Origin: Ashinkailepas kermadecensis
Lineage: Eukaryota; Arthropoda; Thecostraca; Neolepadidae
Direction: 5' to 3'
Length of the DNA: 64,000 nucleotides
Assembly: GCA_034440615.1 (NCBI GenBank)
Contig: JAOTOM010004579.1
Location: 122,001-186,000 of the forward strand
Part shown: positions 3,556 through 29,984 of the stretch, one piece after another
How positions within the stretch are numbered: the first letter of the stretch is position 1
Layout: every line of letters starts with the position of its first letter
Position numbers and translations under genes: made by a program
The notes under the pieces: model-generated
Seen by the model: only the letters and a program-made list of their open reading frames with translations
Database searches by the model: none
Told to the model about the DNA's origin: nothing

Positions 3556-3798
3556 TGTCGTAACTCCCTGATTACAGAACCAACATCTGGCTTTGTGTCA
3601 GTTTTAAATATACCTGAATATGGATTGAGGACAACGGGCCTTGGCGGAACAAAGAAGGAGGCAGAGGAATCTGCCGCAAAAGATTTCATTGGAAAATTAA
3701 AAAGAAACGGTTCTTGGGAAGGAGGCCTGTCTCCAAGGCACCTCGTTGCGGACGCGGCAGCTCGTGTCGCGCCTGACTCTCCAGACTGGTTGACGCAG
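3556..3798 (+). CDS. Exon: dsRBD1 beta sheet and second helix
   Basis: The exon follows a strong polypyrimidine acceptor (ttgtcttaacag) and ends at a gt donor at 3799, both phase 0. It encodes 81 residues. The core reads FVSVLNIPEYG, then TTGLGGTKKEAEESAAKDF, matching the beta2-beta3 strands and the KKxAxxxAAxDF second helix of a dsRBD. The nearest match I recall is the first dsRBD of DHX9/maleless (GxGNSTNKKDAxxxAxRDFVNYL). The KK pair at the helix start is the usual phosphate-contacting site. A second possible acceptor ends at 3577. The first dsRBD helix is missing and must be in an upstream exon I could not find. Confidence 0.75.
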
Positions 3799-6700
3799 GT
3801 GATTAAAACGCATACAATATGAGATTGTCATTGAAGTACTAATTTTAAGCTTATAAACTTACGGGTGATAGCTCGATCATTGTTTTATTTAGCATTGTTT
3901 TGTATTGGCCCCTTAACTCATTTATAATGCTCGCTCATATGCTATCTAGTGCCGTCTGGCGTTTTTTTTCCATAGTAGTTTTACTTGCATATGATGATTG
4001 CACGCCATTTTGGTCCATTTCACGACATTTTTACCGGAATGTGTGGCTCGTACCTCGTACCAGACGCTCGTACCTATATATCAATCCCCATATAATTGGA
4101 AACAAAAAGTTATTCCCCTGTTTGCCGATGCGCCGGAAATACTACTCGAGACCACGCCTTAGAACCTATAGTTTAATTGACCATACGCTTTTTATTTGGC
4201 TACCTTTTGGCGAAAGCCTTGTGCTTCCGGGCTACCAGACTGCAAAGTTATTATCCAATGGAGTCATTATCCTGACGGGGTCGCGCCAGCCGATAAACTT
4301 CTCTGCTCACGTAAAACCCATCCCGGTATTTGGCCTCGGTCTTTATTTATTTCAAATCCGAGCCTGTAATCGATTAATTGGTGGCGGTCACCGTTGCTTT
4401 CGCAGTAAGCAAAAGTAAGCTGCAAAGCCCGAGTCGGCAAGCAAGCAGAATGAGAATGGACTTCTGCGTGATGTACAACAATTTGAGTTTTGGAGTGTTG
4501 GCTGCTTGGAATCCCATTCCAGTCTGGACAGAAAGTTAAGTTGTAAATTTTCCTATGCAGATGCAAAAAAAGTCCATTTGCGCTCCAAAATATTGCAAAC
4601 ATTGTGCATTGCATTGCAAACATTTTGCAACATGACAAATTGCAATGCGTATGCGTTGTAACGTTGTGTACGTTGCGTTGTGATGTTGTTTACGTTGATT
4701 GAGCCGAAGTGTATCTTGGCGATCGACTGGTGATTGCCTATACACCAGGAATTGTAAAGTATTTCTCTTTTTTCAGTGGATCAAGGTGCCGAGGTTACCA
4801 TGGCAGGACTCAAAGTCCTACCTCAATATACTGTTGGCGAAAAATCATGTCAAGAATCCTTCCTACGAAACCGACAGTTCCGATGGGTAAGAAACAGCGT
4901 TGTGTCTCAGCTGGAAATACTGTATATTATTCCATTGACGGTGGAAACTGGCGATAATAGCAAGTAAGGTCACAATTTGTTCCTCAGCGGATGCTACTGC
5001 GTAGCGCGGAGATGGTCAAACAGGAAGTTGGGCACATCAGGTTGGTGGCAGATCCAACTGGGCAGGCAGAAATCACTTGACAGGCACGTCCTTAGTTCTG
5101 CTGTGAAATACTTTACGTTAAATCTAGACTGGGTTTTCAATCAATTTGTTCCCAGGAGATTATTTTTGATTACCTTATCTTTGATCTGTTACGCTGTTAC
5201 TCTTACTAATACATGAGTCCAGAAAATAGTTGCCTGGCTAGCAACCGGAGTGTTGGCTTTGGACGTGGGGATTGTGTGTTTTGCTTCATAGTCATGTGCC
5301 AGATAAAAATGCTTCCTGAAATTTTCACCCGTTTTTTATGTTAGTGAAAGAGGAAGGATAGAGTGGATAAAATTCCTCAATTTTTAAGACCGGTTATCGC
5401 CATCTTGATTATTGCATGGGAAATATCAGCTGTCCGCTTCAATATATTCAGATCGCGACCACTGTGCCACCGATTTCCCCTCCAGATTCAATTTCACCCC
5501 TGCTTTCAGTTTTCAGTCCCAATGCGAACCGGTCACCCCTCCCCCGGCCACGCTGGTGACGTGCTCCACTTGATACGTGAGGATTTGTCAATGCTCATGC
5601 ACTTCTGAGCGTCATGTGCTTTATCTTGATTTTGCACCTTAATCTGTCATGTTGTAAATGCTATATGTATATTGAGTTCTGGCACTTATCGCCAGTTCCA
5701 TCACTTATCGCCGAACAAAGTCGTGTTGCGAGTTGCCTCCTTATTGGGACCTTAACGACCACCCTCCCCACTGCTACAACTGCTCAGTTAAGCTTTGCCT
5801 TACACATCGAGCCACGGACGTTTTATGGAATAGATTGAGATGAGGGAGTGTGTATTGGTATTGTGGATCCCAAGTATGTATTGAGAGTGGCAACTCCAAA
5901 GGGTCCCATGTGAAATGTAGAAAACGTGGGGGAATAAAGTCGAAGCTGGATGGAGTAGTGGCTGTCGCTCCTGATAAATCCTGATGCATGGCAGTTGTTA
6001 TGCTTCTTCACCTTTTTTTGTGTTAATTTGTTCAACTTTCTTACCACTTCAATAGTTAATTTTGCATTAAGATATGCATTGCGTTCCATCGACATACTTT
6101 ATGTGACTGCATGTCATTCGTTTTTGTTTTATTCATCACCTGTATGTCCTCGCTTCGCTGTGCGACTACAGAAACTTGCAGTGTGCATTCTTTGTTCCAG
6201 TGGCTTCAGAAGTCGTCTGACGTTTACCCTTCCAAGTGGTTCAGTTATTGTTGAGAAAGCAACTGCGCCTGCCAAGGCTGTATGTACACTGGGGCGAGCT
6301 TTATGTGCATGTTCTATCTTTGCAATGCAACGCTTTTCCTCTTGGGATATGTCTGAGAAGATGACTTCCAAGCTGGGGTATTGCATACAGCGATATAGGA
6401 AAATATATATACAAAGGATCATATTTTTCGTCTGGGTGGCTCTCATCTCATCTCATTCGTCAGAGTGGCTTTAAAACGCTAGCGGGCGACTGTCTGTCCT
6501 GCGCTTCAGATATATTGTTGCTTGGGGACCGACTCTCCACTTGATCCGGGAATTCAATTGCAAGGGTCAAATCTAGTTCAGCGTGCCGCCAATGCTCCGA
6601 CAATGCTGCCCTGTTGCTGCGTTCCCGACCTTGTCGGACCTGTTATCCGCTCCCCTTTCAGCCGGGGCCCAATGCGAACGCGAATAGTTACTCTACCACT

Positions 6701-9700
6701 GCCTTGTAGGACACGGCGAGCGATGGAGACTGGCACTCTAGCCTATTGAGCTATTCGGGTGGCAGTCGTGGTGTAGTTATTTAAATTGCGTTTTAGATTG
6801 CAAACTTCAAAGCTCGACTTCAAAACAAGATTCAAGCCAGCGTTCTACTAGGTGGTATACCATTCGAACATTGGAGTATGTTATAGAATCTGTGGTGTGA
6901 CCTAACCACTCTCGAGCAACCAGAGCATCGGCTGATGGCTGAAGTTATAATATCAAAAGAGCCGTGCATGTTCTAGGGAACCATTACGCACGCATCGTAA
7001 CTTGGTATTTTTTACGAAGACGATGGTGTGTGTGTGTGTCTGGGGGGGGGGGGACTATCTAAAAAAGGACCTTTTAACTTTGCCTGGCAAAACATTTGAG
7101 ATGTTTAATTTATAGGGCATCTTTATAGGTAATCCATTCATATGAATCAGTAATCATTGTCACGGTTCCAGACACCGTGTTTTCCGAAAAAAACGTCTTC
7201 ATGTCGGGCATACGGATGTATTTGTTTTGCATATTTCCAACCATGTTCTTTTTTAACGGTTACATCTTATCATAAGACAGTAAGTTCCTAATGTTTCACG
7301 GAAGGAATGTGGTGCCATAGAACGCCAAAGCAACCAGAATTGCTTCGTATGCGATGTTGTCAGTGAACAAGAACTACATGTCCGTTATTGGAGCATGCGC
7401 AATTATCTGCTAACATAGCATCAATTGAGGAGTCCCACATTGCACCCGACATTAGGTCCGTAGTGTTGGGGTATGGAAAGCTCATCCCATTGCATGCCGC
7501 TCGTGCTCGCTTTTTGTTCGTGCTGCCACTGAATCGCTTGCTCTTGTGATGAAGGGGTCCTCAGCGGCGGGCATATCAAATGGAGTCCCGCGTAGTCCAC
7601 GGACACCCAACCCCTGACAGCGCTTGCGAACTTTGTAGTAGAACTGCCCGTCCCTCTGTCCACTACTGTGTTTGGAGTGGTAACTGATGATGCCTCTATT
7701 TTTGTGAAGAAGCTCATGAATGAGTACGAATTATGCTTGTGGCAAGGAGGCAACGCGGCGGTATTAGTAGGCGGGGAAGAAATTAGGCGGTATTAGCATA
7801 ATTCGACTCTATTCGATTGTATCAACGAAGCTTTCCTACAATATTCCCTCGAAATAATTGCGGGAGTGTTTTTTGTTGGAAAGGAATGTAACTGTGTTGC
7901 CTGTGAGATGTGTTCTGATATAAAAGCTGTGCGAAAGTTCACTACTTTCGCAATTAGTCGCATTATTGTGTAGATTGTTTTTCTTTCGTCCCCAGTACCT
8001 CTTCCCTTCTCCGTTTTCTCCCTCTCGCTCTTCTTGCTCCGCCTGGCTTCCACCCGCGAGGTCACATGGATGTCACAATGGAGGTCACACATTCAAGAAC
8101 GCGATACCGTAATACTTCATTGGTTTGTCTCTGCTGCTACTGCCGCCTCAGCCTTCATATTGTGTCCAAATCATGGATAAGCGTGAGCCAGTAGACGTGA
8201 TCACTAATTTCCGGTAAGCGTTCTCAATATTTTATTCCATATCCAAAACACAAGGACTGTTTCTAACTCATTACAATTACCATTGTGTTCAGAATCTTCC
8301 AATCGAGCAATACGTGAGCAAGTATTAAATGAGGTTATCGCTAATAATGCATCCATTGGTTTCTCTTTCCTGCGGTGGAAGCATTACGAAAATGGGTTCT
8401 TGATGTTAATATTTCCTCTCTAATTGCATCTTGCCCTACATCTTTGGGTCCTTTTGGTACCTAATTTCGAGCAAGGAATGTTGTTTCTAGCGATTTCTTA
8501 ATGGTATCATTTTCTCTATTACCTGAAATACTCATTGCACATGATACCTCTGCCTTTTATACCAATTTAATTCCTTTGCAAACCTCCTATTCAACAGTGG
8601 CATGCGTGCGCGGACATGCTTGTGTCACTCGTCTCGTCGTGCCAGCCGCATCGTACTTACGTTTGCTGCTAGCCGCTGTCTGTCGGGCTGCACGGCAAAT
8701 GACTGCTCGCGTCACCAGCTAGACGTTCACTGAATGCTCGCGCTTTGGGTTACACGGCCGCTGACTGCTCGCGTCACGGGCTGGACGGCCGCTGACTGCT
8801 CGCGTCACGGGCTGCACGGCCGCTGACCGCTGTTGCAGAAGGCCGAGACAGGGTGCGCCACGGCGGCCATCGCCCAGCTGCAAGCCATGCACCTGGTCTG
8901 TATCGAAGTACCTGATGCACGGGTGGCTGTGCAGGCGGACACGCCGCCCCCCTCGGTATCAAGATGCCTTTCTGCGCCGCTCCCTGTTTCCACACCGGAG
9001 CCGGCCCAGGTGGGTTTGACGCTATTCTATAATATTGCTGTGTGCAACTGACCTTTGTTGCATGACTTTTACCATCCAGTAGTTCTCGTTTTTCAGATCA
9101 TTAAGGCATTCGCACAATACATTTTAAAAGTTGTCTGACCACCCCGGTAGATCCTCAGTGGCACACTCCTTGCACTCCCACGGGCCCCTGACGCGGCCCT
9201 TATACAATCCTCCACGGGGTCGCCGTGGCGGAGATGGCGAGGCCAGCATCACTTTGTATGTTCGTTGTTGGGCCTCACGGACGAACCTTAAGTACGTCCA
9301 CGAGTTCTTACGAACGTTTACGGGTCCCTATGATCGTATATGGCCATTACGAACGGATACGGGCCCTTACGAACGTACATGTGTCCTTCTAAGCTTGTGC
9401 GGACCATTACGAACTTCTACGAGCCCTTGCGAACGTCTACGGGCGCTTACAGATGCCTACGGATCCTTACGAAGATCTGTGGCCATATATGAACATCTTA
9501 CGAACTTCTGTGGGCTCTTAGGAACGTCTGCGGGCGCTTACAGATGCCTTCGAGCCTTCACGCACGTCTGCGGGCCATTGTAAACGTTTAGGGGTCTTCA
9601 CGAACGTATACGGGCTCTTGTGAACGTCTGCGGGACCCTACAAACTCATACAGGCCATTACAAACTCCTACGGGCCATTACACATGTTTACGGCCCTTTA

Positions 9701-12700
9701 CGAATGTTTACGGGCTCCTGCGAACGTATACGGGCTCTTATGATCGTCTGCGGGCCCTTACACAAGTGTACGAGCTCTTATGAATGTGTGCGGGCGCTTA
9801 CGAGAGTCTACGGGTCCTTGCAAGCGTTTACTCACCACTTACCAGTACTGAACCGACGTCTTTTCTAATGAGGTTTTAACATCCTGCATCCAGATGCATG
9901 TTTAGCCGATCTGCATTTCTGGTTTATGATAGTGCCATGCTTACGCACAGTTTAACACGCGCACTGGAGGGGAGGGCGAAATCCGCCCACCCCTCCGGTT
10001 TTTCGTAAATAACTGCAGATTTTACCGGTCGATATACGCAATTTTCTGTGTACCTGCTTAGAAATGACCGGCACGTCGTTTAAAGCAAGAAAAATGGAAA
10101 TCGACCGAAGATTTTTCAAGTTAGGGGCCGGCTAAAGTAAAAAAAAAATTATAGCGCCAGACCACAAAAATCGGCGCTGATGCGCTTCCCGTATATTCGC
10201 AAAAGGGAAGTGTTCTTGGCAACACTAACGACTTGTTTGATGTATATTGATATGCTATATAGTTTCAAGATCATGTTAGGTCACCGAGGTCAAGTCAGGT
10301 CAAGTTCATGACAGGTTAATGGAGCCAAACTTGATCAACTGGAATGTTGTCATAAATGCACTACTGTTTGTCATTTGTACTGTTTGTCATTGCGTTTCCA
10401 TACTTTATTCATGTACTTCACTCCTTTCTTCACGAAGCCGATTGCTCCGAGCTGCCCGACGGAGCAGTTGGGCGGGCGGCCCGGTTTCGGTAACTGGAAC
10501 AGGTAACTGACCTGATAAAGTGGTGCTATATAGGTAACCTGAGGTCAACTGTTGGGTCCAGCATCTGCATTGCATCATTAGTAATGTCCAAAACATCATT
10601 GATGCCCATTTTGGAGCATTTAAATACAATCACAGCGATCCATAACGATGACAAGCCAAGCCACGCAATACCAGAAAATTTTGCATATTTGACATCATTT
10701 GACCTTGAAGATATTGACCTAATGTCATGACATTTGGACACGATAGAGTTCACTACCGTACCCATCCACCCTGTGAATTTCGTTCCTCTAGCTTCACTAG
10801 GAGCCGAGATCGTAGGGGGGGGCGGAATCCGCCCCCCCCCCCCTCCAGTGCGCGTAATTCTCAGAGGCCCTCCAGGGCGCGTGTTAAGGGTGTTAAGGGT
10901 AGTCTTCAGTCGAAACGGGCCTTCAATGGGGATTTAACAAATGCAAATAAATAACTTATTTTTTGCGAATAGAATGGGCCCTTTTCGAAATATAGTGGCC
11001 GAAAATCAGGGGAATTCGAAACAAAATTGGAGAAGCCCGGGTCACCTTCGCAAAATCCGCTCCCTCCTTGGACAGTTATTCGGTGCGTCCCTGACTGGAA
11101 TAGTCCTCCGTTCACCGGGCCCAAAAAGTAAAAAAAAACTCCCGCGCGCGCACAATGTGCTTCGGCGGAAATGCTGAGAGGAATCTACAAGAGGAAAGGA
11201 ATATTGCGTGCCAAAAAAAATTACCGTTTGCATAGCGTGTTGGTGCCTGTGCATGTGGCTATATGTGGGTGTACGTAAAGGAAAAACGGTCAAGCACGGA
11301 CCCCAATGTTGTTGAAAAATAGCCTTTGCTGTATAGTTACGGGACTCGAAACATGGAATGTGTTGTTCAAAGGAAGGTAGGTCATTGAAATCCTTCTCAG
11401 CGTTGTATTACTGTTGTAGTTTGGTGGTGCAGAGTCGCCACGACTTGGGCGACTGATTGCCAGAGCCTTGGCACTGGACGGCCGAAGGGTGTAATCTGGT
11501 GTAATTATTAACGGTCCTGGTGTGCGGTAATTATCGGCGTGCGATGTGCTTGGAGCTAAGGCGTTGTTCTATACGCAGCGAACACTTGTCGCGCAGTGTT
11601 CTGTGAACAGTGATTGTGAATGTGCTGTTCCCGTTTGGCATTTCTAATTGTCAAAGATCATCGTGTCGGGAACCTTTCCTATGCACCTCTACCTGACATG
11701 TTGCTATTTCAGTGGCGGAAGAATTCCATGCGGTCAGCCGAGGTTCCCGCAGTCGACTGCGCTAGCGGCTTGTCCAGCTTCATGACTGCATTGGAACTGA
11801 CAGGTAAGCCCCGCAGAGTCAGCCACGTTAACCCTCCCCGTCTTTCCGCTCATATCCTCACACCCCGTCTCGGGGGTTGATACAACCCCCCCTCTAATTT
11901 CCAAACTAAGCGTCGCACGAAAACGAAAGAGGTGTCATCAGAAAGCGCTCGACGAGTGAGGCCAGAAACCACCCCCAAATTTGCATCCCCACAAAAAGTG
12001 ACGTCACTAGGGGCCTAGGTTTTCGCGATTTACATAATGTTTTTGGCTCTGGGGAGTTCATTTTGGGGGAGATTTGAAGAATACAAATATTTAGAATCGG
12101 AAAAGGAAGTCGAAATCGACCATGGCCCTAAAAGTTTTGCCCATCCAAAAATCAAGTTTCTTTTTTAATTTCAAAATTTTGAGCTTACACTTTTCTTTCC
12201 TTCTTCCTGACCGAAAAAACGTTGTTCGAAGTTAACTTGCTCTCATAAAAATAATGCTTACTTTAGCCGGAATCTTCGATTTTAGCCGTAATGGGCAAAT
12301 ATGCAAAGCTAATAAGTAATCAAAAACGGAAAAATATATAACATTCCTCTGGTGCGTTTTGTTTCGTCCCTAAAGATAAACAAACGCTGAAAGTTTCATT
12401 AAAATATCTGTATCTGTTAAAGCGTGACGACTGGTTGAACTTTTCTGGAGGTGACCTCACTTGACCTTGACTAACTCGTTGACCCTAGATGACTTGACCT
12501 CAAAATTTTTACACAACATGCCAAATTGATGTGGGAAAAGTATGCCAAATTTCGGCGCGCGGTCGTGCGCCGTTCTTTTACTATCCGCGGAAAACCTTAA
12601 GGGGGCGCATATCACCCCCCCCGAGACGGCGCGGGTTAAGGTGAACACTAAGCGATGCACCGTACGAAGGTGGTGGGGGCCGAGACACAGTTGTATTCCT

Positions 12701-14161
12701 CACACCACTCAGCTGCTGGTCAGTTTTCTCCCACAGCCGGTGTGCGAATCAAGATGCGAATCCACTGAATCAAACAATGCGTCCACAAGTGGGAAAATCC
12801 AATAATTGGAACGCCCAATAATCAAGCAGCCCAAGGATATGTCCCATACTTCAGGACTCAGGATCAGAGTTCTCAAAACTCCTACCACTTAGTCATGTCA
12901 TCATTACTGTAAGGAGACTGAAATCTGTGAGGCGTCATTTTTCAATCACCAGATAATGGAATCTGCATGAAGTATTCTAAGTAAACCTAATCACACTTAA
13001 ATGACAACACTTTAATTGGGTCGGTAAGATGACGTCAGTAAGATGGTCGCAATGGTCAGACGCAATGGTCAGATGGCAGGGACTTCATTGATCACTCGAG
13101 TACGGTTCTCCATGGTATTCGCGCGAATGAAGTAGAGTCGTCGCAGCACTTCGTCGCTGGTCGGCAGCTGGGTCACGCATAGCGCCTCCATAGGCTGCCC
13201 TAGGAGGCACCACTCCTTCGTCTTAAGTGTAGCACTCGCCATCTATTTGTGAAGAAGGTAGTACAATGTCACGACACATTTTTTTGTGCACATAGCTTTT
13301 TGTCATCCCATTGAGGACGAAGCTTACCTTGTTCTGCGTAAACGCAAACACGCACTGTTCATGGTGAGTGAGCGAATACCCCTGAAACCGAATCCGCCAA
13401 GTCAACACTGCAACCGTGTCGAAACTGGTCTCAGTAGGTTTGGACCGCCACAAACTCGTGAAAACTGGACGAGGCCTGATGGTACTCCCATCGGAAAGAC
13501 ACCATTATCATGCTGTAATGAGGGCAAACGTATCGTTTGATGTAAAAAGTAGCTGTTTCGATTTACTAACTATTTGAAGTCTCGAATGTTCCAAACATAT
13601 AATAATTTGTGGTGCAAAAACAGCTTTGTGAAACGTCGCCCCTGAGATTCGAACGAGGTGCCTTCCCGTTACATAGGAGAAACTTTGACGTACTTGCGTC
13701 CTCTAAATATTATTGAACTCGAATGACAGTGTATATTTGGAGTTTCCTCATCAGACGTCACCAAACAATAGATGATCCCTGATAATATTATTTCTGGGAT
13801 GACCTTTTTTTAAAACAATTAATGAGCTTTCGTAACTCCTAGCGACTCCGTCGTCAGATGGTATATTCAAAGAGAAGACAATCAATGTTTTCCACAACAT
13901 TTCAAACAATTTGAAATTGAAACTGTGAACAGGTTGAAAAAATTGTGGAAAACCTTAATTGTCTTCTCTTTGAATATATCATCTGACGACGGAAGCGCTA
14001 GAAGCTCCGAAAGCTCATTAATTATTTTTTTAAAAACGGTCATCCACGAAATATTATTATCATTCTTATAAACCATTTCATATGTCTCTGAAAGATTTAA
14101 TAGATGATCCCGTGGAAGAAAAGTCCCGTTCGAAAGTTTCCCCACATAAAATAGAGCACCG

Positions 14162-14244
<83 letters not shown>

Positions 14245-17200: not shown

Positions 17201-20200
17201 TTTCTGGTTTGGTGTGGTACAAATCCCCAAATTCCTTGTTTGATCCAGTGCATTTTTGAAGGGTGGGGCTCGGGATTCCGTTGGCTGTGCCTCTGATGAT
17301 GCGTGATATACCCCTGACTTATACACCAAGATGCATCCTAACGTCACGTGTTGCATATAATGTGTGGTGTCATGTGCATCATATCAAAATGTCTGGGTGC
17401 AATGTAACCCACTGGGGTTGACGCACCCTAAAACCCCAATAATCAATCATATCAAAATGTCACTCGTTACATGGGGACGAGTGGTCTAGGGGTAAGATGC
17501 TCGTCTCACAATCGAAAGGTTGTGGGTTCGAGTCTCACCTGTCGCTACTCTTCGCCCGCGACCAATCGGCGTGAGAGATTGGCGACGCTACATGACTCAA
17601 CGGTCGACGTGTCGTAAAAACCAATAACAACATTCATAATCTATACCCACATCCAAGACTTAGACGTACACTTGTCCTTACGTGTTTGACACCACGTCTG
17701 ACATCACAGACACATTCGACATCATACACACTTCACATCACAGATACACTGACACACCTAACATCACAGACTCACCTAATATCGGCCACGGGGCATGACA
17801 TCTGTTATACCTATCATCCCACTGTCGTGCTACTCTCATTCCCTCACAGCTATGCACACTGCACGTGTCCTGACATACGACTGTTATGTGCATACACACC
17901 TTGCCCGTTGGGTTCCAGAATATACTAGTTGGTAATATTCATCATCCATGACGGTCACATCACCCACTGGCATTTGATCATCTGATGGCGGCAGTCCTGC
18001 ATCGAGGTCACACATGCAGCAGACAGTGGCAGTACCTGGGTGTCAGATATCTGTGCACCTCGGCCGGAAATGGGGAGGGGGGACAATAGCCGTTGGCCTC
18101 GCCGGCGGTCGGTCGGTGCCGACGTAAGCAGCTCGACCCCGGGGAACGGTATCTGCCGAACCTGTCGCGACATACAGTGGGGAGGGGGCAAAGTTTTTTT
18201 TTAAATTTAATTAAAGTGTCTCCACAACTAGCTTCGCTACAATTAGTCCCCAAGCAAAGGCAAAGACGATTTCCCGCGGATCCAAGGTTTGCAGCGAATA
18301 GCATTGCCAAAGACAACTAAGGATTTATTTCATTTCAAGTCAGGGAAGTGACCGAGTGGCGGAGCTCCACCAATAGGTTTAGGCGACATCTGGCATGCAA
18401 ATTTCAATGCTCTGTGACGAATTATCCAAATAGGATTTGCTTATTTGTCAAATCCCTGCACTTCTGCGAAAGCTTGACGCAATAAAGGTCATGTCTTTGC
18501 AGGCTGCCAAGAGAGCGCAGATGCAGTCCGTTCACAAGCTCCCTGTCGCGGCATGGTGCTCCATTCTGTGTCTGCAGGATAGAACCCCAGAGCCCACCTC
18601 TTGCGCCCGCTCTTTCAGCGCCCCAATGGTGCCTTGAACTGGTTCAAATTGTTGACATCATCACTGCGTGGTCCCTGTTGTATCACTGCTAAAGATGATA
18701 AACACTACCCATGCATCTGACAAGATGCAGCCCACTGACAGAATAAATACTACCCGTGCCTCTTACAAGGTGCAACCCACTGACAGGATGAATGCTACCC
18801 GTGCCTCTTGCAAGGCGCAGCCCACTGACAGGATGAATACTATCCGTGCCTCTTGCAAGGTGCAGCCCACTGACAGGATGAATACTATCCGTGCCTCTTG
18901 CAAGGTGCAGCCCACTGACAGGATGAATACTACCCGTGCCTCTTGCAAGGTGCAGCCCACTGATAGGCGAAACTTGCCTCTGATCTTGCTAGTTGTTACA
19001 ATCTGTAGCCCCAGAAAAAGAAACGTTCCTCTTGGCATACAATTGGGAGCAAGTTTCCCGGTCTCCCCACTCTGTGGTGAGCCACTGCTTGCGAAGTGTA
19101 GATAATCCTGATGAAGCATGTACAAGGGACCTCCTAAGCATTTTTAAGCATTTTTATATTTATGTTACATATGTATTCATCATGCTCGGCGCAACATGAC
19201 CCTGGTAGTGGACACGCCCCTAAACTCCAATTCATCATCACCATCATCATTATCATCATCATCATCATCATTCATCGTGGGTGCAAAATGATCGTACTGG
19301 CGTCGACACACCGTAAGACGCCAATAAGTAACTAACGGAAATATGAATCATGGTCTTCTGTTGTGAGCTTCAGGGACCACCTAAAATCCGCATATGAGAT
19401 CTCCATTAAGTTCATTGACAAATTTCTTTCTATGATAGAGTTCATCGTGTCCAAAATTAAGTACAAATGAAGTATAGAGTTGACCTTCATTGGCAGGAAA
19501 GAAGTAGGGAAAATCGAAAACTGCACTAAGTTAGCGCAGCGACAGGAGCGGTTGCACTAAGTTAGTGCAGCTTTCGTTTCATGATGGCGTTTGTTTATTG
19601 CTGGCTGAAGTTTATATTTATATGTTTACATCCGGGCAGATTTCGTGGGCGGAAACGATAATACGTTCACAAATCGTGGTGTTTTTCATGCTGTTGATAA
19701 TTGTATGATTGTATTTTCGACCTGATTGAGCTGCGACACTCCTGACGATAGTTTAAAACTGAAAGTTAGAGTCGTTAATAAAGTGTTATTTCGCTCTATT
19801 TATACTTCTTTCCTGCCAATTAAAGCCAACTTTATGCTTGGTTTCTACTTACTTTTGACCACTATGGAACCTCCAGTCTTTATTAGGCGAAGGCACTCTG
19901 GCCGCTTTGGGTAGAGGGAATCTCGTGGAATTTGCATTAAAAGGCCCCACTCCCACCGTTGTGAGGTGCAAATCGGCCTCCGGAAATCTGCATCAGAGCC
20001 TCCTTTTGTGGGCTGCACTAGCCCCCTGAAGAAGGACGTTTGGTTCTTTTACGACGCCTTCGACTGCTCGACCATATAGTGCCGCCAATCACTCACTCCG
20101 GCTGGTCGCCCCTTCAAACTCGGTAATCCCGCCGGTTGCCAGATTCGAACCCGCGGTTTTGCGAGGATGAGCCGAACGCCCTACCGACTGAGCTACCGAG

Positions 20201-23200
20201 GCCCCGCATGGGCCTCCTGAAATCTGTATATGGAGCCAGAGCGTCGCCACCGGATGGGGAGGGGCGAGAGGGCGACTTGTCCCCTGCCGTCGGTTAACGA
20301 GATGATACCCGTACGTCGGTGTAATTTAATAGAGGAGACTCCCAGGATGCAAGGAACCCCAAAATCGGCAGGAAGGCCCAGGAAACGAGGCGATGTTCCT
20401 AAGACGATGCAGGAGGCCCGTAATATGAAGGAGGAAGCCCCGGAGACCCAAGACGAGGCTCTCAGGACGTAAGGGGAGGCCCCGAAGAAGAGATGGAGGC
20501 CCCAGAAAATCAGACGAAACGAGACCTTTAGGAAGTGTAGAAAGCCCTTAATTTGGTACGATGAGGCCCCAGAATGCAAGCGGTGCCCACAGAAAGTCGG
20601 GAGTTCTTTTTGACCGCATCAGAGGCCCCCAAGATGCAAGAGTGAGCCCCCAAGCGGATAAGAAGACCCCAGAAAATGAGAGGCGCCTAAAGCACAACCC
20701 TGAAAAGGAGGCCAAAATTATAGGCGCCCTTGGCTACTTTTCAAAAGGATCCTCCCAATTGAGACAGGTGGTTTCAAGATGAGAAGATGCAAGCGAATGC
20801 TTCACATGGACGCCACCGCTGGGGGACAGGGGCGAAGATATGGTGTCCCCTGAAATATGGGGAAGACCCTTTTCACAAATGGATAGCTCCGCTAAGGAGT
20901 CCACCCCGCAGGACGGCGAAGGGGCCTGCGAGAAATGAGAGGAGACCCATAACACGAAAGACGTGACCCCTATGGAGGGGAGAAGAGGTTCCCGGAACGC
21001 AGGAGGAGGCCCCCAAGACTGGTATTGAGGACCACAGGATGGAACGAGAGGTTTCAAGACGTCAGAGAAGGTCCGAAATTTGGCAACGCAGAGACCCCTC
21101 GGACGAGTGAAAATTACAGGAGAATGTAGAGAATCCAAGTTACAGGAGAATGTCCCCAAGACGGAAAGGAGAACCATCGGATCCAAGCACGCCGTCTGGT
21201 TCCATGATCCAGAACTTACTTAGAAGATATCAAGAAGATTATTTGGTCGTGGAAAATGTGAACAGAAATTCTATGTCTGTCGTGAATTGTCTATCTGTTG
21301 CCCGTTGCGTAATCAATGCCCCATGTTGGTTAGTGATTTCCTAGTTTTGGTGGCAATAGTCGAGTTCTATGCATTTTTGGTACCGGGCGGCCGTTTCTTG
21401 CATGCAGCCTTTAAGACAGTATTATTAACCATTCATAAAGGCACTACCCTTGAAGAATATATTGATAATAAGAAGTACAAAAAGGTATACAATGAAAAGA
21501 AAAGGAAGAATGCGAATAATTGACACATCCAATAATTGCATTCTGCTTCCTTGAAGTTCTAAATGTATCGTGCCAAACTTTGCAAGATCGTTAGTCAACG
21601 ATTAGTAAGCCATTTAGTATACCATTCTCAAAACTCCTGATCCCTTGATCTGGGTCCTTTAAAGAGCTCGTATAAAAAGCACAGGGAAGCCCGCGAGTTT
21701 GAGGATAACGCCAAGGGATAAGGAGGTCCCCATGGAGAACAATCGTCACCTCCCGTGTAACAAAATTTGTGTCGCAACCTCTCGGGGTCCCTAGAAGCAG
21801 GGGTGGCACCAGAGTGGAACAGGGGCGGGGGAGGGAGTGGTATCCTCCCTCGAACGTCGTGTTTAACATCAGTCTCTGAGTAAGTTTAGCATTATGTTTC
21901 TGAGCGTTGTATGGAAAGAATGGGCCCAGGGCATCATCATGTCCCCCCCTCCCCCCATCCAAATTTCGTGTCGCTGCCGATGCTTAGATAAGGTTGGATG
22001 CCCGCCCACGAAGAGACCCAAAGAACTTAGGAGAGTCCTCAATATAAATCACACCGATGTATTGAAGGCTTTGAAGGAGGCCCTGAGTATAGCAATTAAT
22101 CCTGACTATTGCGAGGGGAAGCCCCTTATGTAGGCGTAAGGGGAACATATGGCTTAAGCCAACAGAAAGTCTTGCCTATATATTGCAGGAAGTATCGACT
22201 GCAGCTCACATTGACAGGAGATCACTTACACAGTTTCCATGAGGTCACTGAAGTGCGCAACAACAGGAGGCCTCTTATCAGTGTCGGCCCCGTACAAATT
22301 TCTCAAACGGGGGGCTCGAATGTGGCCTGGTACCTGATCGAGATTGAGGAGTGTGATCGAGACGGTGAGCTCTCTATGTAATGCTCCTTTCATCTCCAGC
22401 TTAGAGAACCAGGTGACCGTTCTGCATTATGTGACATGCAAGGGTTCGGATGCGATTAATTCTTAGCATATTTCCCCAGTAGGTAGGTTGTTGTTTTTTG
22501 TGTTGTTCGTTATTCGAGCTAAAGAGCGCTTCGACCAGTATTTGCTCATTAGCGCCTATCCCAGTTGGTGCGCATTACCGTCAACTTCCGGCAGCGTGTT
22601 CTATCGGCCAGTGTTCGGCGTACGATGCAATGATGAACATTTTCCAGGGCTCGCTGTGGACGGTCGAGTCATCACGGACAGAGTTATTCTGCACGTGGGT
22701 AGGCAGCTCGGAAACCTGCGCAAGACGGTGGCGCTCGACCTGGGCCTGACCGAAGCCGATGTACAAAACTGTGCCCATGGCGAGAATGATCCGTACGAGG
22801 TGAGTCCGAGGGTATCACGAAATGACCATGTTACTGGAACACGCTGGGCGAGTTCTTTCGGGAGACAACTGGCAAGAAGGGAAACGATATGTTCACGGTA
22901 TGTAGGTGAGCTTAGGCTGTGCAAGGACACAGGTTCCCGTTGGCCAGTTCGTTATCAAGATTTGCACATTTTTCGTTCGCAGTCCTTCACGAACTATGAT
23001 GGTTAGCCAAATCTGACTTCAAGCTCCTCGAATATTAACTCTCGGCTGTGTATGATTATTTTCCACCTTCCATGGTGTAAGAAGAGAGTAATTGCCCTTC
23101 AGCCTTCAGCGGCCCTAATGGTATGCATTAGCAGACTGAAACACAAAGGAGCGTGCTACTTATGGGGGAAATCTCGTGATTCTCACCTTTTTGTAGTATT

Positions 23201-26200
23201 CAGTCATTGGTGTACGTAGGTCAAGTCAAAGATCCTTTGATGGCTACATTTTCACCTCAGTTTCCATTGTCACAAATGTCTAGAATGTTGACTTTTACTT
23301 GCAATCTATACCAAAACTTCAAGTGATGCACACTTAAAAGTTGTACACAGTGTTCCTTGGTGCCTTACGACCCTAACAACGTAGCATATTCCACATAGGC
23401 ATGCATAGGTTTCGCTTCAGGTGAGGGATATTGCTGATTGAAAAGATTACATTTTGTCCTAGGCCTTTTTTTTACTGTGATCTAGGTGGAACAAACTACA
23501 TTAGTAGTCAGAGCCTTTCAAATCAACAAAGCCGAAAGCCATTCTCGGCCAACTTGGTCCTTTGACCCAAGGTCGCCTTTGAAATGTTAGAAAGTTGTGC
23601 GAGCATGTAGTTCAGCTTTCAATCACCCAAAAACACCGAAAACTCACATTTGAGTGCTGCTGGACAACGGTAAGTTGCGAAAATGAACAATTTCGATACC
23701 ACATGACCGGATGCATTTTTGGTGACAGTACCTGCATTAGCAGTGAAAGAGATTGTCATAGCTGTGCATGGCATAGCATAGCTGTGCATAGCAGTGAAAC
23801 AGACTATCAAGTACTTAGGATTCAAAATAGAAAATACAAGAAATATGCATTTTAGAACAGAAGAGAAGAATAACAGAAAATGCACAAATATAGCAAATCT
23901 AGTATTTGCGCAGTTATATGTAATTTAGTAATGTCTTAGGTTGACGACCCTCTGGGAAAGTATCACACTGCCATCAGTGTTATATGGTGCAAATACAATG
24001 AACTTAATAAAAGTGAAATCGAGAATCGAAAATCGACTGGACGCCATACAAAACAATATTGGGTGCTCTAAAATATCCACCGACATGCACGCTGACAGGC
24101 GATATAGTGTGTGGCATCACTGCTTATCACAATAATAATGAATTGAGGTTGCAATGTATAAATAACATATAAGAACCTAAGAATCGATTGCTAGGGAAAT
24201 TCTGGTTGCATTGGAATTAAATAAACCAAATATGTTGGCAGAAGCAGCCAACAACTACCAAGTTGCAATGAAAATGTTGGACAATGACACGAGAGCAATG
24301 AAGAAGAAAGAATATATCAAGGATAGGACAAGCAAATGCGATACATAATTATGGTAGCAAAAGGTAAACACCAAAAACAAGTCACTTCATTCCAAGCATG
24401 GAAAGAAGTGATACAAGAGGAAAGATATGGCACCATAACCATCACTATCCATCATGTATAGAGCAAGACGTGATGTTCTACTAATAAGCAATATACAAAT
24501 ATGTACAGTAGGAAGTATAGCATGCGAGCCATATGGGGCAGAGACTCTTATGCTATTACGATATGTCGAAACTTGAGGGAACTCAGACAAGAGAAAGAAC
24601 TATCACAGCAGCCATATCAAGCAAATAAGCTGAATATGCTTGTACGTTTATGTTTGAAGTTGAAAGATATAGGAAAAACACAAATGCTTTTTAAAATGCG
24701 GAAATCTAGATCATATGCGAGTTCAGTGCGCCCCAGCAACCTAAGGCCAAAGCCAAAGTTTACGTTTAAGTAAAATCAAGGTGGGCCGGTGTAAAAGCAA
24801 ATCCTCCAAGTCATCAGCACGTGTGATATATCACGAGGTAATGTGTGCACGATAAAATTATAAAAATGTCCCCATTGGTACAGTTACCAATGCATTGCTA
24901 TCCCTCCCCTCCCCTCCCCCGCCTCTTGTGTGACGGCGCGCTAACATATGAATACATGAATACAAGAATAGTGTTGATTGGAATGGAACATGGCATGCAC
25001 TGGTACCAATGTTGACATCCCTCGTGAACTTCACGGGAGAAGTCCCAAAACGGCTGGTGGTTCTGTGTCCACGGCTTTGTCCATCATAATTTTAGGCACT
25101 TTCCAGTCGATGTATTGCTCATTCTCGAGCGGCTGTAATCGAATTAAATATCGGGAGTGCGGGTATTATAGTCTCATCTTACATCGTCATCATCTCGTCC
25201 CAGGCAGGCGCGTGCCTCAAGCCTGCAGGACGCTGTGGACTTCCGATCTCATTGGAGGCGTTCTGGTGGCTAAGCTTTGTGTACGTGCATCTCCGTTTTT
25301 TCGGGAAATGATGCTCATAGTTGCTCCTCCACTGCTGCTGGTAGTGCTGGTAGGTCACGTGACCTTAGGTTACGATGGCACGATTTCAATTATTCCGTAA
25401 ACAAAAATCTCGAAATAGCCAAAAGATGCAGTGGAATATTGAGTTCACCGATATATACTTTTCGGATTGTTCTTCATTGTATCAAGGACCTCAAAATACA
25501 CCCTTGTTTGGTGACATCTCAGAAGTGCCTGAGGCTATAACTCCTTGACCGTTGTCCTGATCTTTCTAACAATGGCACAGCTGGGTTCGGCGTATAAGAT
25601 AACCCCACACAAATATTTTCATCAAAATATACAATATTGGGTGTTATGCCCTTGTCGATTTGTCGTGGAATGGACCATAGGCGTTAACTATCACCGTACG
25701 GTGATTAAGTTGGTTGGTTATTGGTTTTTACGACATGTCGACCGTTGAGTCATGTAGCGTCGCCAATCTCTCTCGCCGATTGGTCGCGGGCGAAGAGTAG
25801 CGACAGGTGAGACTCGAACCCACAACCTTTCGATTGTGAGACGAGCATCTTACCCCTAGACCACTCGTCTCCACGGGGATTAAGTTGAGCCACATGCTTT
25901 ATTAGATTACTCTTAAGTGCTTCATACTAACGCACAAATGTTGTATACCTTCCATTGTTGATGAGCGCACTTTGTTATAAATTTCCATTGTATTAGGGTT
26001 ACATAGGTCAAATTAGGGTTCGGCAGGTTCAATGAAGCTGCACCCTTTTCCAAACGTGCAATAATGTACTAATATTTTGCAATCGGACACCATTTAGCAT
26101 ATATGAAGGAGAGTGGTCTACAGTTATCGTCTGTTTCCCATCTGAAAGGCTGTGGGTTCGTGTCCAACATGTCGCTACTCTTCGCCCACGACCAATCGAC

Positions 26201-27142
26201 GTGAGATATTGGTGATGCTGTACGACCAAGGTAGTCGACGCGTCGTAAAGCCAATAGCCACCACCACCGTCTAATAGATTATCAATCTGCCAGTTCAGAC
26301 CCTGTATTAGATTGGCTTCAGACACGCTAAGAATATTTAATGAAATAATTACGTGACCCGAAGGGATGATGTTGGCTCCCTGAAAAAGGTGTTAAAGCAC
26401 AATTGCATTGTCGGTTGTTAACAATGACCTCTGTATTCATGCTTATGGCATTTCACTTTTTTTCTCGTGAAGCATCCCAACCCCCACTAAAAAAAAAAAG
26501 AATACAAGAAACGCAGCTCGTGGCAACCATTACATCATGGTGCGTTGCATTGCATTACATCTTCCTTTGGTTTTACCCCTCCCCCACCGAAAGTCAATAA
26601 ATCGCCAGGAGAAACCATCTGGTTCAGAACCCCTGCTGTAAGGACGCAAAGTTTTGGCGATCATATCTCACAATCGTGAGTCATATGGAACATAAATAAT
26701 AAGTGTTTCTCGATATCAATATTGAACTTGCGAAAAACATTGTAGCATTCCACATTCGACAAGCATTCGACGGAAATAAGTGTAGTGTTGTAGCCCACGA
26801 TTGGCGTGCATTCATATGATAAGGCCTAACGTGATGTGATTGTAGTTGATGAATCGTACAATGGCCTTGGTGTCTGCAAAATAGTCTGACCTAACTTTTT
26901 TAGCCCCATAGTCTCCTAACTTTTGTTCCTCGACATTTTGGCCGAACACCGTAGTAACTTAGTGTTTCCACCGATCACACATTTTTGTTTTGCAGATTAA
27001 CCGAAGACTTCTCCGGAAGTGGCTTGAACAGGAGTCATCAAGAGCGACTGTCGGACGACTGTGCCAAGTGTTGTGGGATGCGGAGGCGTACGATGCCCTG
27101 GATGCTTTGCACTCAGAAATGGCACATTCGCCGACGCTGTAA
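3556..27142 (+). CDS. dsRNA-binding and Death-domain protein, multi-exon gene (5' end not seen)
   Basis: This is the span of a spliced gene rebuilt by eye. Proposed exons are 3556-3798, 4777-4886, 6201-6279, 8839-9009, 11713-11803, 15001-15273, 15518-15556 (uncertain), 16927-17024 (start uncertain), 18503-18555, 22189-22364, 22648-22799 and 26996-27142. Junction phases, in order, are 0, 2, 0, 0, 1, 1, 1, 0, 2, 1, 0 and match on both sides. The product has dsRBD1, dsRBD2, a Ser/Pro linker, dsRBD3, a RHIM-like segment and a C-terminal Death domain, about 543 visible residues. The dsRBDs resemble maleless/DHX9 domains, but no DEAH helicase follows. Inferred role: cytoplasmic dsRNA sensor or adaptor that recruits Death-fold partners. 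The start codon and the first helix of dsRBD1 were not found; they may lie upstream of the window. The single-gene reading rests on phase agreement and domain completion across introns, not on transcripts. Confidence 0.72.
4777..4886 (+). CDS. Exon: dsRBD2 first helix and strand 1
   Basis: The exon starts after ttttttcag in phase 0 and ends at donor gtaaga in phase 2. The frame reads WIKVPRLPWQDSKSYLN, then ILLAKNHVKNPSYETDSSDG. SKSYLNILLAKN is a dsRBD first helix and PSYE is the typical start of strand 1; compare the NAKxxLN...Y of the second dsRBD in maleless. Two other open frames overlap it, but only this frame joins both neighbours in phase and completes a domain. Confidence 0.75.
6201..6279 (+). 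CDS. Exon: dsRBD2 strands 2-3
   Basis: A short exon follows the acceptor tctttgttccag (phase 2) and ends before donor gtatgt at 6280 (phase 0). It encodes GFRSRLTFTLPSGSVIVEKA then TAPAKA. These are two hydrophobic beta strands (RLTFTL, SVIVEKA) leading to the basic start of the last dsRBD helix, which continues in the exon at 8839. A longer frame around it (5995-6474) is open by chance and is mostly intron. Confidence 0.7.
6280..8650. other. Intron, no gene seen
   Basis: Intron between the dsRBD2 strand exon and its last-helix exon. It has a short GT run and a G run near 7030-7052. No domain is recognised in either strand. Confidence 0.4.
8650..8830. repeat. ~31-bp minisatellite abutting a splice acceptor
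   Basis: Units of the form GGGCTGGACGGCCGCTGACT plus GCTCGCGTCAC recur, clean copies at about 8755-8830 and diverged ones before. The array ends 8-10 bases before exon 8839-9009. Confidence 0.65.
8839..9009 (+). CDS. Exon: dsRBD2 last helix and linker
   Basis: The exon begins right after ctgttgcag (phase 0) and ends before gtgggt (phase 0), giving 57 residues. KAETGCATAAIAQLQAMHLV continues the preceding AKA to give a full dsRBD alpha2 helix, comparable to NKKxAxxSCALSLVRQL in maleless/DHX9. The rest (PDARVAVQADTPPPSVS onward) is a Pro/Ser linker. A ~31-bp minisatellite runs up to a few bases from the acceptor, so the branch point region lies inside tandem repeats. Confidence 0.75.
9281..9835. 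repeat. 20-bp period minisatellite
   Basis: Degenerate tandem copies with the consensus ACGAACGTCTACGGGCCCTT, about 27 units. The open frames at 9131-9583 and 9620-9868 with repeated Tyr-Gly-Pro-Leu patterns come from this array and are not called as genes. Confidence 0.75.
9952..10887. mobile_element. piggyBac-like non-autonomous element, copy 1
   Basis: It begins TTAA-CACGCGCACTGGAGG and ends CCTCCAGGGCGCGTG-TTAA, so inverted ends are flanked by TTAA as in the piggyBac superfamily. Length is about 0.93 kb. No transposase frame is present. The body holds several AGGTCA-like half sites (TCACCGAGGTCAAGTCAGG). A second copy lies at 29084-29984 in the same orientation. Confidence 0.7.
11713..11803 (+). 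CDS. Exon: interdomain linker
   Basis: The exon is bounded by gctatttcag (phase 0) and a consensus donor ggtaagcc at 11804 (phase 1). It encodes WRKNSMRSAEVPAVDCASGL then SSFMTALELTG. No domain is recognised. It is included because both splice sites are strong and both phases match the neighbouring exons. Confidence 0.6.
11804..14162. other. Intron, mostly unrecognised
   Basis: No coding domain is seen. Around 12430-12640 there is a segment with gaccttgac/gaggtcaag half sites and a C run near GAGACGGCGCGGGTTAA, reminiscent of the TTAA elements, but no clear partner end was found. The foldback MITE at 13781-14061 lies here. Confidence 0.4.
13781..14061. mobile_element. Foldback MITE, copy 1
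   Basis: The left arm (TTCTGGGATGACC, ATGAGCTTTCG, CGTCGTCAGATGG, GAGAAGACAAT) is repeated inverted on the right (ATTGTCTTCTC, CATCTGACGACGG, CGAAAGCTCAT, GGTCATCC). The two arms of about 120-130 bp would form a long hairpin. No coding capacity. Confidence 0.75.
14163..14234. repeat. (AT)n microsatellite
   Basis: About 35 uninterrupted TA dinucleotides in the intron before exon 15001-15273. Confidence 0.95.
14286..14683. mobile_element. hAT-like MITE with 8-bp target duplication
   Basis: It begins CAGTAGCGCAACGGGG and ends CCTGGTTGCGCCACTG, imperfect inverted ends. The flanks carry an 8-bp direct repeat AAGCCTAC (14278-14285 and 14684-14691), the duplication length of hAT elements. The interior is GC-rich with repeated ggggcccgc/gcgggcccc palindromes. 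Length is 398 bp, no transposase. Confidence 0.8.
15001..15273 (+). CDS. Exon: Ser/Ala/Thr-rich linker with beta-prone motif
   Basis: The longest visible exon (273 nt) starts after tggcattgcag in phase 1 and ends before gtgagt in phase 1. It begins RVTSGLETILRSASASARPS and is rich in Ser, Ala, Thr and Pro, as expected for a disordered linker. In the middle is a beta-prone run, NVVVYNYGSQHIHLPSHL, followed by GNM. This run has a loose likeness to RHIM amyloid motifs and is discussed as a finding. The rest (ERPPSAVSRERTPAALG) looks like a phosphorylatable linker. Confidence 0.65.
15372..15394. repeat. (TG)n microsatellite
   Basis: A short run of TG dinucleotides in the intron between 15273 and 15518. 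Confidence 0.8.
15518..15556 (+). CDS. Possible small exon: dsRBD3 first helix
   Basis: An acceptor with a good polypyrimidine tract (ttctttttccccag) precedes this segment. Entered in phase 1 from the previous exon it reads SLISHFAHARGKL, a good dsRBD first helix. To keep phase 1 to the next exon the donor must be gttggg at 15557, which is weak. A better-looking donor, gtgaat at 15567, would leave phase 2 and not match any acceptor seen near 16927. The previous exon could also splice directly to 16927 in phase 1, skipping this one. Confidence 0.35.
15876..16030. repeat. Degenerate CATCTTCATACATC-type repeat
   Basis: Short units such as CCACATCTTCATACATC and CACCATGCATCTTACC recur imperfectly. 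The plus-strand frame through it has no domain and is taken as repeat-derived. Confidence 0.4.
16671..16830 (+). mobile_element. tRNA-derived SINE, subfamily A
   Basis: A full copy in the intron upstream of the dsRBD3 exon, about 100 bp before it. Box A GTGGTCTAGGGG and box B GGTTCGAGTCT are intact. It ends AATAACCAACC. Confidence 0.85.
16927..17024 (+). CDS. Exon: dsRBD3 strands and start of last helix
   Basis: The exon reads AVHEGGELVLDIKVGRVTSI then LTAPEEKRKHEA, ending before donor gtgagg in phase 0. The strands ELVLDIKV and VTSILTA and the basic EEKRKHEA helix start fit a dsRBD. It is completed by AAKRAQMQSVHKL in the next exon. The start is uncertain: acceptors at 16860, 16926 and 16941 all give phase 1, and none has a strong pyrimidine tract. 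Confidence 0.55.
17397..17445 (+). mobile_element. LINE 3'-tail fragment
   Basis: GTGCAATGTAACCCACTGG then CGCACCCTAAAACCCCAATA and an AATC tail. The same tail is found on the minus strand at 50758-50819, where LINE coding sequence is still attached. Confidence 0.6.
17473..17630 (+). mobile_element. tRNA-derived SINE, subfamily A
   Basis: A full copy in the intron after the dsRBD3 strand exon, same orientation as the gene. It follows directly on a LINE 3' tail (17397-17445). Confidence 0.85.
17690..17790. repeat. Degenerate CACATCACAGA repeat
   Basis: Units like GACATCACAGACACATTC and TCACATCACAGATACAC recur imperfectly in the intron. No gene here. Confidence 0.45.
18503..18555 (+). CDS. 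Exon: dsRBD3 last helix
   Basis: The exon starts after catgtctttgcag in phase 0. AAKRAQMQSVHKLPVAA completes the third dsRBD helix begun with KRKHEA. The 3' end is uncertain: gt at 18556 and gt at 18568 both give the phase 2 needed by the exon at 22189, and neither is a strong donor. The frame meets a stop at 18632, so the exon must end before it. Confidence 0.6.
18695..18965. repeat. 45-bp minisatellite, open on both strands
   Basis: About six copies of a 45-bp unit (CACTGACAGGATGAATACTA, then CCGTGCCTCTTGCAAGGTGCAGCC with small changes). Being a multiple of three it keeps a plus frame (TDRMNTIRASCKVQP repeated) and a minus frame open. It lies in an intron and no splice signals or domain support coding use. 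Confidence 0.8.
19229..19275. repeat. (CAT)n microsatellite
   Basis: About 15 CAT triplets with few interruptions. It is followed at 19293-19337 by a LINE-like tail (GGCGTCGACACACCGTAAG, AATAAGTAACTAAC). Confidence 0.85.
20042..20205 (-). mobile_element. tRNA-derived SINE, subfamily B (different head, same body)
   Basis: On the minus strand it begins GCCTCGGTAGCTCAGTCGG with box B GGTTCGAATC, a different tRNA-like head from subfamily A. The rest (GTGAGTGATTGGCGGCAC, TATGGTCGAGCAGTCGAAGG, CGTCGTAAAAGAACC) can be aligned with the subfamily A body. The T stem does not pair well, so it is not a functional tRNA gene. Confidence 0.75.
20330..21130. repeat. Irregular minisatellite, GAGGCCCC(A)AGA type
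   Basis: Units around gaggccccaagacg, agaaaatgaga and ggaggcccc recur every 25-35 bp with much variation. The same unit type fills the core of the element at 33840-39503. Open frames here are repeat-derived. Confidence 0.6.
22189..22364 (+). CDS. Exon: RHIM-like segment before the Death domain
   Basis: The exon is bounded by tatatattgcag (phase 2) and donor ggtgagct (phase 1). It begins KYRLQLTLTGDHLHSFHE and includes PLISVGPVQISQTGG then SNVAWYLIEIE. The VQIS tetrad (22292-22303) sits between hydrophobic stretches and is followed by Asn. This resembles the (V/I)Q(I/V/L)G core of RHIM motifs, with Ser for Gly and a longer spacing to the Asn. The position just N-terminal to a Death domain matches RIPK1 and insect Imd. 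The likeness is by eye only. Confidence 0.6.
22648..22799 (+). CDS. Exon: Death domain, helices 1-3
   Basis: The exon starts after acattttccag in phase 1 and ends before consensus donor gtgagt in phase 0. It reads LAVDGRVITDRVILHVGRQL, then GNLRKTVALDLGLTEADVQ and NCAHGENDPYE. The pattern hxxhxxxLGxxxKxxAxxLGLxxxDhxxxxxxxxxD is the hallmark of Death domains (UNC5, ankyrin, FADD, Imd). In most family members a Trp stands where this protein has Leu-Arg (GNxW becomes GNLR). Confidence 0.75.
23941..24780 (+). pseudogene. Possible LINE reverse transcriptase remnant
   Basis: LWESITLPSVLYGANTM, then RLDAIQNNIG resembles the segment after the RT palm in several LINEs (W..I.LP.LLYG......L..IQ). Frames downstream (PNMLAEAANNYQVAMKML, MKKKEYIKDRTSK) could be more of it. 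Stops and frame changes are frequent. The match is short and seen by eye only. Confidence 0.35.
25710..25872 (-). mobile_element. tRNA-derived SINE, subfamily A, with target duplication
   Basis: A minus-strand copy in the last intron. A 10-bp direct repeat, GATTAAGTTG, is seen at 25703-25712 and again at 25878-25887, overlapping the tail on the left. This fits a target-site duplication from LINE-driven insertion. Confidence 0.85.
26108..26268 (+). mobile_element. tRNA-derived SINE, old diverged copy
   Basis: The same order of head, body and tail can be followed (GAGTGGTCTA, GGGTTCGTGTC, TCGCTACTCTTCGCCCACG, GTCGACGCGTCGTAAAGCC), but with many substitutions. Box B is damaged (GGTTCGTGTC), so this is an inactive older copy. 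Confidence 0.75.
26996..27142 (+). CDS. Terminal exon: Death domain, helices 4-6, stop
   Basis: The exon follows atttttgttttgcag in phase 0 and ends at TAA (27140-27142). It encodes 48 residues: INRRLLRKWLEQESSRATVG then RLCQVLWDAEAYDALDAL and a short tail. LLRKWLEQ...ATVGRLCQVL is the typical second half of a Death domain (LLxxWxxxxGxxATxxxLxxxL). It is separated from the first half by a 4.2-kb intron carrying SINEs. Together the two exons form a complete domain at the extreme C terminus. I did not find a clear AATAAA just downstream. Confidence 0.75.
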   Translation: MNRRLLRKWLEQESSRATVGRLCQVLWDAEAYDALDALHSEMAHSPTL

Positions 27143-29083: not shown

Positions 29084-29984
29084 TTAACACGCGCACTGGA
29101 GGGGGGGGGGCAAAATCGGCCCACCCCTCCGGTTTTTCGTACTTAGCTGCAGATTTTACCGGTCGATATACACGATTCCTGCGTACCGGCTTAGAAATGA
29201 CAGGTACGTCGTATAAAGCAAGACAAATGGAAATCGGTCGAAACAAATTTGAAGTTTAAGTATAAAAAAAAATCCTGGCGCCAGACCACTAAAATCGGCA
29301 CTGATGCTCTTCCCGTATATTCGCAAAAGGGAAGTGTTCTTGGCAACACTAGCGACTTGTTTGATGTATATTGATATGCTATATAGTTTTAAAGTCATGT
29401 TAGATCACCGAGGTCAAGTCAGGCCAAGTTCAGGACAGGTTAATGGAACCAAACTTGATCAACTGGAATGTTGTCAAATGCACTACTGTTTGTCATTTGT
29501 ACTGTTTGTTATTGCGTTTCCATACTTTATTCATGTACTTCACTCCTTTCTTCGCGAAGCCGATTGCGCCGAGCTGCCCGACGGAGCAGTCGGGCGGGCG
29601 GCCCGGTTCCGGAAACTGGAACAGGTAACTGACCTGATAACATGCTGCTATATAGGTGACCTGAGGTCAAATGTCGGGTCTAGCATCCGTATTGCATCAT
29701 TAGTAATGTCCAAAACATCATTGGTGCCAATTTTGGAGCATTTAAACACAATCATAGCGATCCATAACATTGACAAGCTAAGCCACGCAAAACGGGAATT
29801 TTTGACAAATGTGACATTATTTGACCTTGAAGATATTGACCTAAGGTCATGAAATTTGCACACAATAGAGTTCGCTACCGTACCCATCCACCCGTCGAAT
29901 TTCGTTCCTCCAGCTTTAATAGGAGCCGAGATCTTAGGGGGGGGGCGGAATCCGCCCCCCCCCCCCCTCCAGTGCGCGTGTTAA
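29084..29984. mobile_element. piggyBac-like non-autonomous element, copy 2
   Basis: TTAA-CACGCGCACTGGAGGGG at the left and CCCCTCCAGTGCGCGTG-TTAA at the right give perfect TTAA flanks and inverted ends of about 17 bp. The body matches copy 1 (9952-10887) along its length, with small indels. About 0.9 kb, no transposase. Confidence 0.8.

Follow-up and report, generated by a model that had tools for sequence, protein, structure and literature searches.

Nucleic-acid recognition is tied to signalling by a kinase in PKR and by RHIMs in ZBP1, which binds Z-form nucleic acid; Imd, which resembles RIP, combines a cryptic RHIM with a C-terminal Death domain. That animals have earlier joined double-stranded RNA-binding domains (dsRBDs) to death-pathway modules is shown, in the parts of the two reports drawn on here, by oyster caspases and by the CXorf38 HEPN family (PMC7836458, PMC3710099). 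The oyster caspase-3C-like proteins carry two DSRM motifs and are proposed by the authors, in the same part of that report, to be a viral pathogen detector (PMC7836458), and the CXorf38 HEPN family of animals, as described in the section used, has dsRBD fusions in some lineages and Death domain fusions in others (PMC3710099). A further family, restricted to Malacostraca and represented by single-copy arthropod transcripts, is described in the excerpted source as having a C-terminal Death domain and no known N-terminal domain (PMC5437397).

The locus described here lies on contig C4082 (122001-186000; hereafter the window, 64,000 nucleotides) of the Ashinkailepas kermadecensis genome assembly (908 Mb in 4,689 contigs), and carries on its plus strand a series of dsRBD exons followed, 13 kb downstream, by two Death domain exons. 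It resembles DHX9/MLE (RNA helicase A, dosage compensation regulator) in a first dsRBD (dsRBD1) that aligns from residue 7 and includes the LYAWxGxRKxxPxY helix, with a likely second dsRBD (dsRBD2) after it, and differs in having no DEAH helicase match in contig positions 92001-344559 and a Death domain downstream instead. With RIPK1 and Imd it shares a C-terminal Death domain, whose closest match among solved structures is RIPK1, but no kinase domain was found in the stretches scanned. The oyster caspase-3C-like proteins are alike in combining two dsRBDs with a cell-death module; they differ in coming from a mollusc and in carrying a caspase domain rather than a Death domain, and the parts of the report drawn on make no mention of DHX9 descent (PMC7836458). 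The CXorf38 family is built on a HEPN core, and HEPN was not found here, while the section of that source used does not state that a dsRBD and a Death domain occur in one protein (PMC3710099). In the Malacostracan family, too, the Death domain is C-terminal (PMC5437397).

The core of an earlier note on this DNA, a dsRBD-containing protein ending in a Death domain, holds with corrections, and its dsRBD side proves stronger than the window alone could show. The reading preferred here, judged to have an even chance, is a single plus-strand gene from window position -3244 to 27142, which would encode tandem DHX9/MLE-type dsRBDs, a linker and, at the C-terminus, a RIPK1-like Death domain, and would lack a helicase.

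Features of the locus

Table 1. Exons, candidate exons and a mobile element in and immediately upstream of the window (window coordinates; splice-site strengths in bits)
Feature	Position	Strand	Content	Phase in/out	Acceptor	Donor
Coding exon I	-3244 to -3154 (C4082:118756-118846)	+	MACRTSKDMLYAWLGQRKVQPKYVTKLQGQ			11.0
Coding exon II	3578-3798	+	dsRBD1 beta strands and second helix (GLGGTKKEAEESAAKDFIGKL), linker	1/0		
Coding exon III	4777-4886	+	linker, dsRBD2 first helix and first strand	0/2	11.0	7.2
Coding exon IV	6201-6279	+	dsRBD2 middle strands	2/0	8.3	3.6 (weak)
Coding exon V	8839-9009	+	dsRBD2 second helix (KAETGCATAAIAQLQAMHL), proline-rich tail	0/0		9.7
Candidate bridge exon	11713-11803	+	able to link exon V to first Death exon	0/1	6.5	11.0
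Candidate optional bridge exon	15001-15273	+		1/1	4.5	7.0
Alternative candidate bridge exon	22189-22364	+	lies just 5' of the Death exons	/1	8.6	8.2
Death domain, first exon	22648-22799	+		1/0	7.2	11.2
Death domain, second and last coding exon	26996-27142	+	TAA stop 27140-27142		11.2	
Non-LTR retrotransposon	44088-47646	+	endonuclease frame 44088-44840 (Exo_endo_phos_2), RNase H frame 46216-47646			

The surrounding sequence contains several repetitive and mobile elements. GC skew is strongly negative at 44-48 kb, over the non-LTR retrotransposon; of 19 matches to its frame, the only two with named relatives are to beetle and soft tick proteins. Six tRNA-like copies spanning tRNA model positions 6-65 (914-974, 1700-1760, 16678-16738, 17480-17540, 25805-25865 and 48342-48402) probably represent a SINE family, and a 94-nt repeat overlapping the tRNA-like element occurs at 16701, 17503 and 26133, its copies being 81-97% identical to its reference. 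Minisatellites lie at 9307-9819 (20 bp unit), 8684-8831 (31 bp), 18697-18967 (45 bp), 49780-50043 (84 bp) and 39920-40222 (59 bp), the 31-bp array stopping 7 bases 5' of exon V. At about 12647-12778 the plus strand shows weak similarity, under the cut-off, to the dimerisation region of hAT transposases.

A first dsRBD of RNA helicase A type

Exon II alone supplies the beta-beta-beta-alpha part of dsRBD1, and exon I, which lies outside the window, completes the domain; coding starts at the ATG at C4082:118756, 3.2 kb 5' of the window and immediately preceded by an in-frame TAA. The half domain visible within the window scores 17.8 bits against Pfam dsrm (PF00035), under the cut-off of 23, whereas exons I and II together reach 33.9 bits, bearing out the presence of a dsRBD as claimed from the window even though its first half sits upstream; a splice-aware HMM joining exon II to exon I gives 26.9 bits. 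The exon start at 3556 that had been proposed proves to be an alternative acceptor, exon I joining instead at the acceptor at 3577.

A PDB search with the N-terminal 224 residues returned DHX9 dsRBD1 (3vyy, E 6.7e-8), DHX9 again (5.3e-7) and then MLE (0.0021). An AlphaFold model of 3556-3798 (single sequence, low confidence at a mean pLDDT of 63) folds as strand-strand-strand-helix, and its best 27 Foldseek matches are all dsRBD-containing proteins, with 0 of the 27 at E <= 0.001. Judged by the PDB matches, dsRBD1 is the N-terminal dsRBD of RNA helicase A (DHX9/MLE) type, a relationship invisible to the earlier note because the first half of the domain falls outside the window. The segment 3170-3222 was also considered as the first dsRBD1 exon, convincing by eye and giving a full-span 14.0 with the real half; it has been replaced by the upstream exon I, and as a false exon it cautions against joining exons by eye at this locus.

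A likely second dsRBD over exons III-V

Exons III-V continue in phase from exon II and likely encode a second dsRBD: a full-span splice-aware scan of 3000-9100 recovered it as 4807-4886, 6201-6279 and 8839-8886 at 16.4 bits, with one gap in the alignment. No control segment reached 14 bits in the same full-span test, neither among a first 38 (best 5.6) nor in a later set of 124 (best 7.8) taken from both strands of contig positions 152001-344559, in which the segments half-overlap each other and in part repeat the sequence of the 38. Looser tests were less discriminating, the real dsRBD2 chain being equalled or beaten by 10 of 39 control segments with a 15-dsRBD profile and by 6 of 55 with a 25-dsRBD profile, although 0 of those 55 gave a full-span match. 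Alone, dsRBD2 scores 13.4 bits in Pfam, below the cut-off, and gives no match with a slightly longer cut; its similarity to MLE dsRBD2 is collinear and weak (2.6 bits). A dsRBD2 divided over several exons had been proposed and is likely, but it is interrupted by two introns, not three.

A third dsRBD had also been claimed and none was found beyond these two, the best full-span score in 9010-22640 being 10.2 bits on a 20-bp minisatellite; among 20 controls of the same length, one exceeded this value, at 16.3 bits.

Relation to the MLE/DHX9 helicase gene

A DEAH helicase was sought by tblastn in 252.6 kb of the contig (92001-344559), the queries being four helicase frames of DEAH type that HA2_N had located in this genome and that detect each other and other loci; no match was obtained at E <= 1e-3. 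On another contig, C3639 (L039, L016), a DHX9-like dsRBD with 55.6% identity to human DHX9 over 54 aa and an HA2_N match lie about 18 kb apart on the same strand, and this is probably the MLE/DHX9 orthologue of the genome. With no DEAH helicase in the part of C4082 searched and a probable MLE/DHX9 gene elsewhere, the dsRBD exons appear to be a divergent paralogue of the MLE/DHX9 N-terminal part that lacks the helicase.

In an improbable reading, the upstream exons are a functionless, decaying partial MLE/DHX9 duplicate, and an unrelated gene contributes the Death exons. In its favour, dsRBD1 is just 30% identical to the DHX9-like dsRBD on C3639 over 53 aa (E 2.4e-4 in a search against 11 dsRBD loci), dsRBD2 and the exon IV donor (3.6 bits) are weak, and the examined contig shows no helicase match after them; however, the five dsRBD exons keep their splice sites, phases and ATG and contain no stop, more than would be expected at such divergence.

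A RIPK1-like Death domain split over two exons

The 98 residues encoded by the two Death exons match Pfam PF00531 (Death) at 41.6 bits against a cut-off of 22.6, and a splice-aware profile scan regained both exons on the plus strand at 49.7 bits, the best minus-strand score being 13.6. The Death domain split over two exons is real, its halves complementing each other across one intron through a phase-0 join, as had been noted from the window. The closest PDB structures are RIPK1 (E 2.1e-5), followed by PIDD and CRADD. No ATG occurs in the open frame of the first Death exon back to 22467, so an upstream exon leaving in phase 1 is needed. No AATAAA or ATTAAA was found in 27142-30000, 3' of the stop. 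Elsewhere in the genome, four single-exon Death domain matches were seen (L001-L004), of which the L003 and L004 pieces are alike and reminiscent of UNC5.

One gene or two neighbours

The DNA shows both domain types with their exons, on one strand and in this order, and it allows open, phase-consistent joins; the join across 9010-22647 is inferred. A single gene is suggested because the two halves lie adjacent on the same strand, the 5' half having a start and no end that could be found, whereas in the 3' half a stop is present and a start is missing. Exons I-V are in phase with one another, as is the Death pair; spliced directly, exon V and the first Death exon do not match in phase, and a candidate bridge exon can reconcile them. 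The twelve exons proposed earlier could not be placed.

With candidate exons 11713-11803 and 15001-15273, open ATG-to-stop models of 353 aa and 444 aa are obtained. The 353-aa model, which includes one candidate bridge exon, scores 38.6 bits for dsrm in two stretches and 38.2 bits for Death, placing both above their Pfam cut-offs in one open model; the refuting condition of sub-threshold HMM scores named in the earlier note thus does not hold. Between the halves, no other Pfam family rose above its cut-off in the plus-strand frames scanned, all but one each in 12003-13502 and 22502-26501; the scan returned four weak sub-cut-off matches.

Against a single gene stand the 13.6 kb that separate exon V from the first Death exon and the candidate status of the bridge exons. 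Chance easily yields open chains of this kind. Pfam gave no match on 15001-15273, no added match on 22189-22364 together with the Death exons, and none on the last 49 residues of 22189-22364 alone; by codon bias 11713-11803 is not coding-like and 15001-15273 points neither way, the training set of one run having contained the false exon 3170-3222. Scan noise is considerable: minus-strand chains reach 17.2 bits for the dsRBD, and 158 kb of downstream sequence yields up to 19.8 bits for the dsRBD and 29.1 bits for Death, so that local tests are noisy over long sequence and little weight attaches to a low score there. A homologue search in a protein collection that includes some animal proteins gave nothing at E <= 10, which is weak evidence of absence because the queries were without exon I and one carried the false exon.

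A somewhat less probable arrangement is that of two neighbouring genes on one strand, in which a short, helicase-less DHX9/MLE-like dsRBD protein would end at 9-22 kb and be followed by a small Imd-like Death adaptor with its own first exon. An ATG at 14928, in a frame open to 15273 whose exit phase fits the first Death exon, offers a possible first exon of that kind, and a RIPK1-like Death domain is as expected of an Imd-like adaptor; that the bridge exons are no more than candidates also favours this arrangement. Set against this, the backing for the last dsRBD exon and the first Death exon that two genes would call for consists of open frame only, and a dsRBD gene directly before a Death-domain gene would be an uncommon neighbourhood, by rough reasoning rather than computation.

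Proposed mechanism and significance

If the single-gene reading is right, the encoded protein would have about 350-440 residues, the length of its linker varying with the candidate bridge exons. Its tandem dsRBDs may bind RNA that is structured or double-stranded, or else a dsRBD partner; with two dsRBDs per chain, several copies could collect on a single RNA, and their C-terminal Death domains, clustered in this way, would nucleate assembly and recruit a Death-domain partner, with NF-kappaB or caspase signalling as the predicted output. The logic would be like that of PKR and ZBP1, by analogy only, where a signalling module is made to assemble by modules that bind nucleic acid, and a sensor role of that kind may be envisaged.

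Canonical RNA contact by dsRBDs involves a KKxAK motif and a GPxH loop, and relative to these motifs dsRBD1 has KKEAE and dsRBD2 KAKAE at the KKxAK position, with GPxH in neither; because each domain has lost some of the canonical contact residues, dsRNA binding is uncertain and may be weak. Use of a dsRBD for protein contact, as served by the third dsRBD of TRBP, is a real alternative to RNA binding, since not all of the lysines that contact RNA are retained. Pfam found no RHIM in the candidate linker exons, in searches of which one query also carried the false exon 3170-3222. The RHIM core is given in the part of the source used as IQIG/VQVG or VHIG (PMC9531809), and the candidate RHIM segment NVVVYNYGSQHIHL is without such a core.

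Taken further, and more tentatively than the single gene itself, a duplicate of the MLE/DHX9 front end lacking the helicase may have become joined to a Death domain of RIPK1/Imd-like kind, such that RNA-driven clustering would nucleate assembly with no helicase, kinase or caspase between. A dsRBD-Death architecture was not found in the open-access literature searched, a scope outside which most subscription journals lie. Should the locus be one gene, an RNA-binding module would be wired straight to a Death domain, which would suggest that invertebrates made an RNA-triggered death-fold pathway from the front end of the MLE/DHX9 helicase, and would name a candidate gene for RNA input into Imd/FADD-type signalling.
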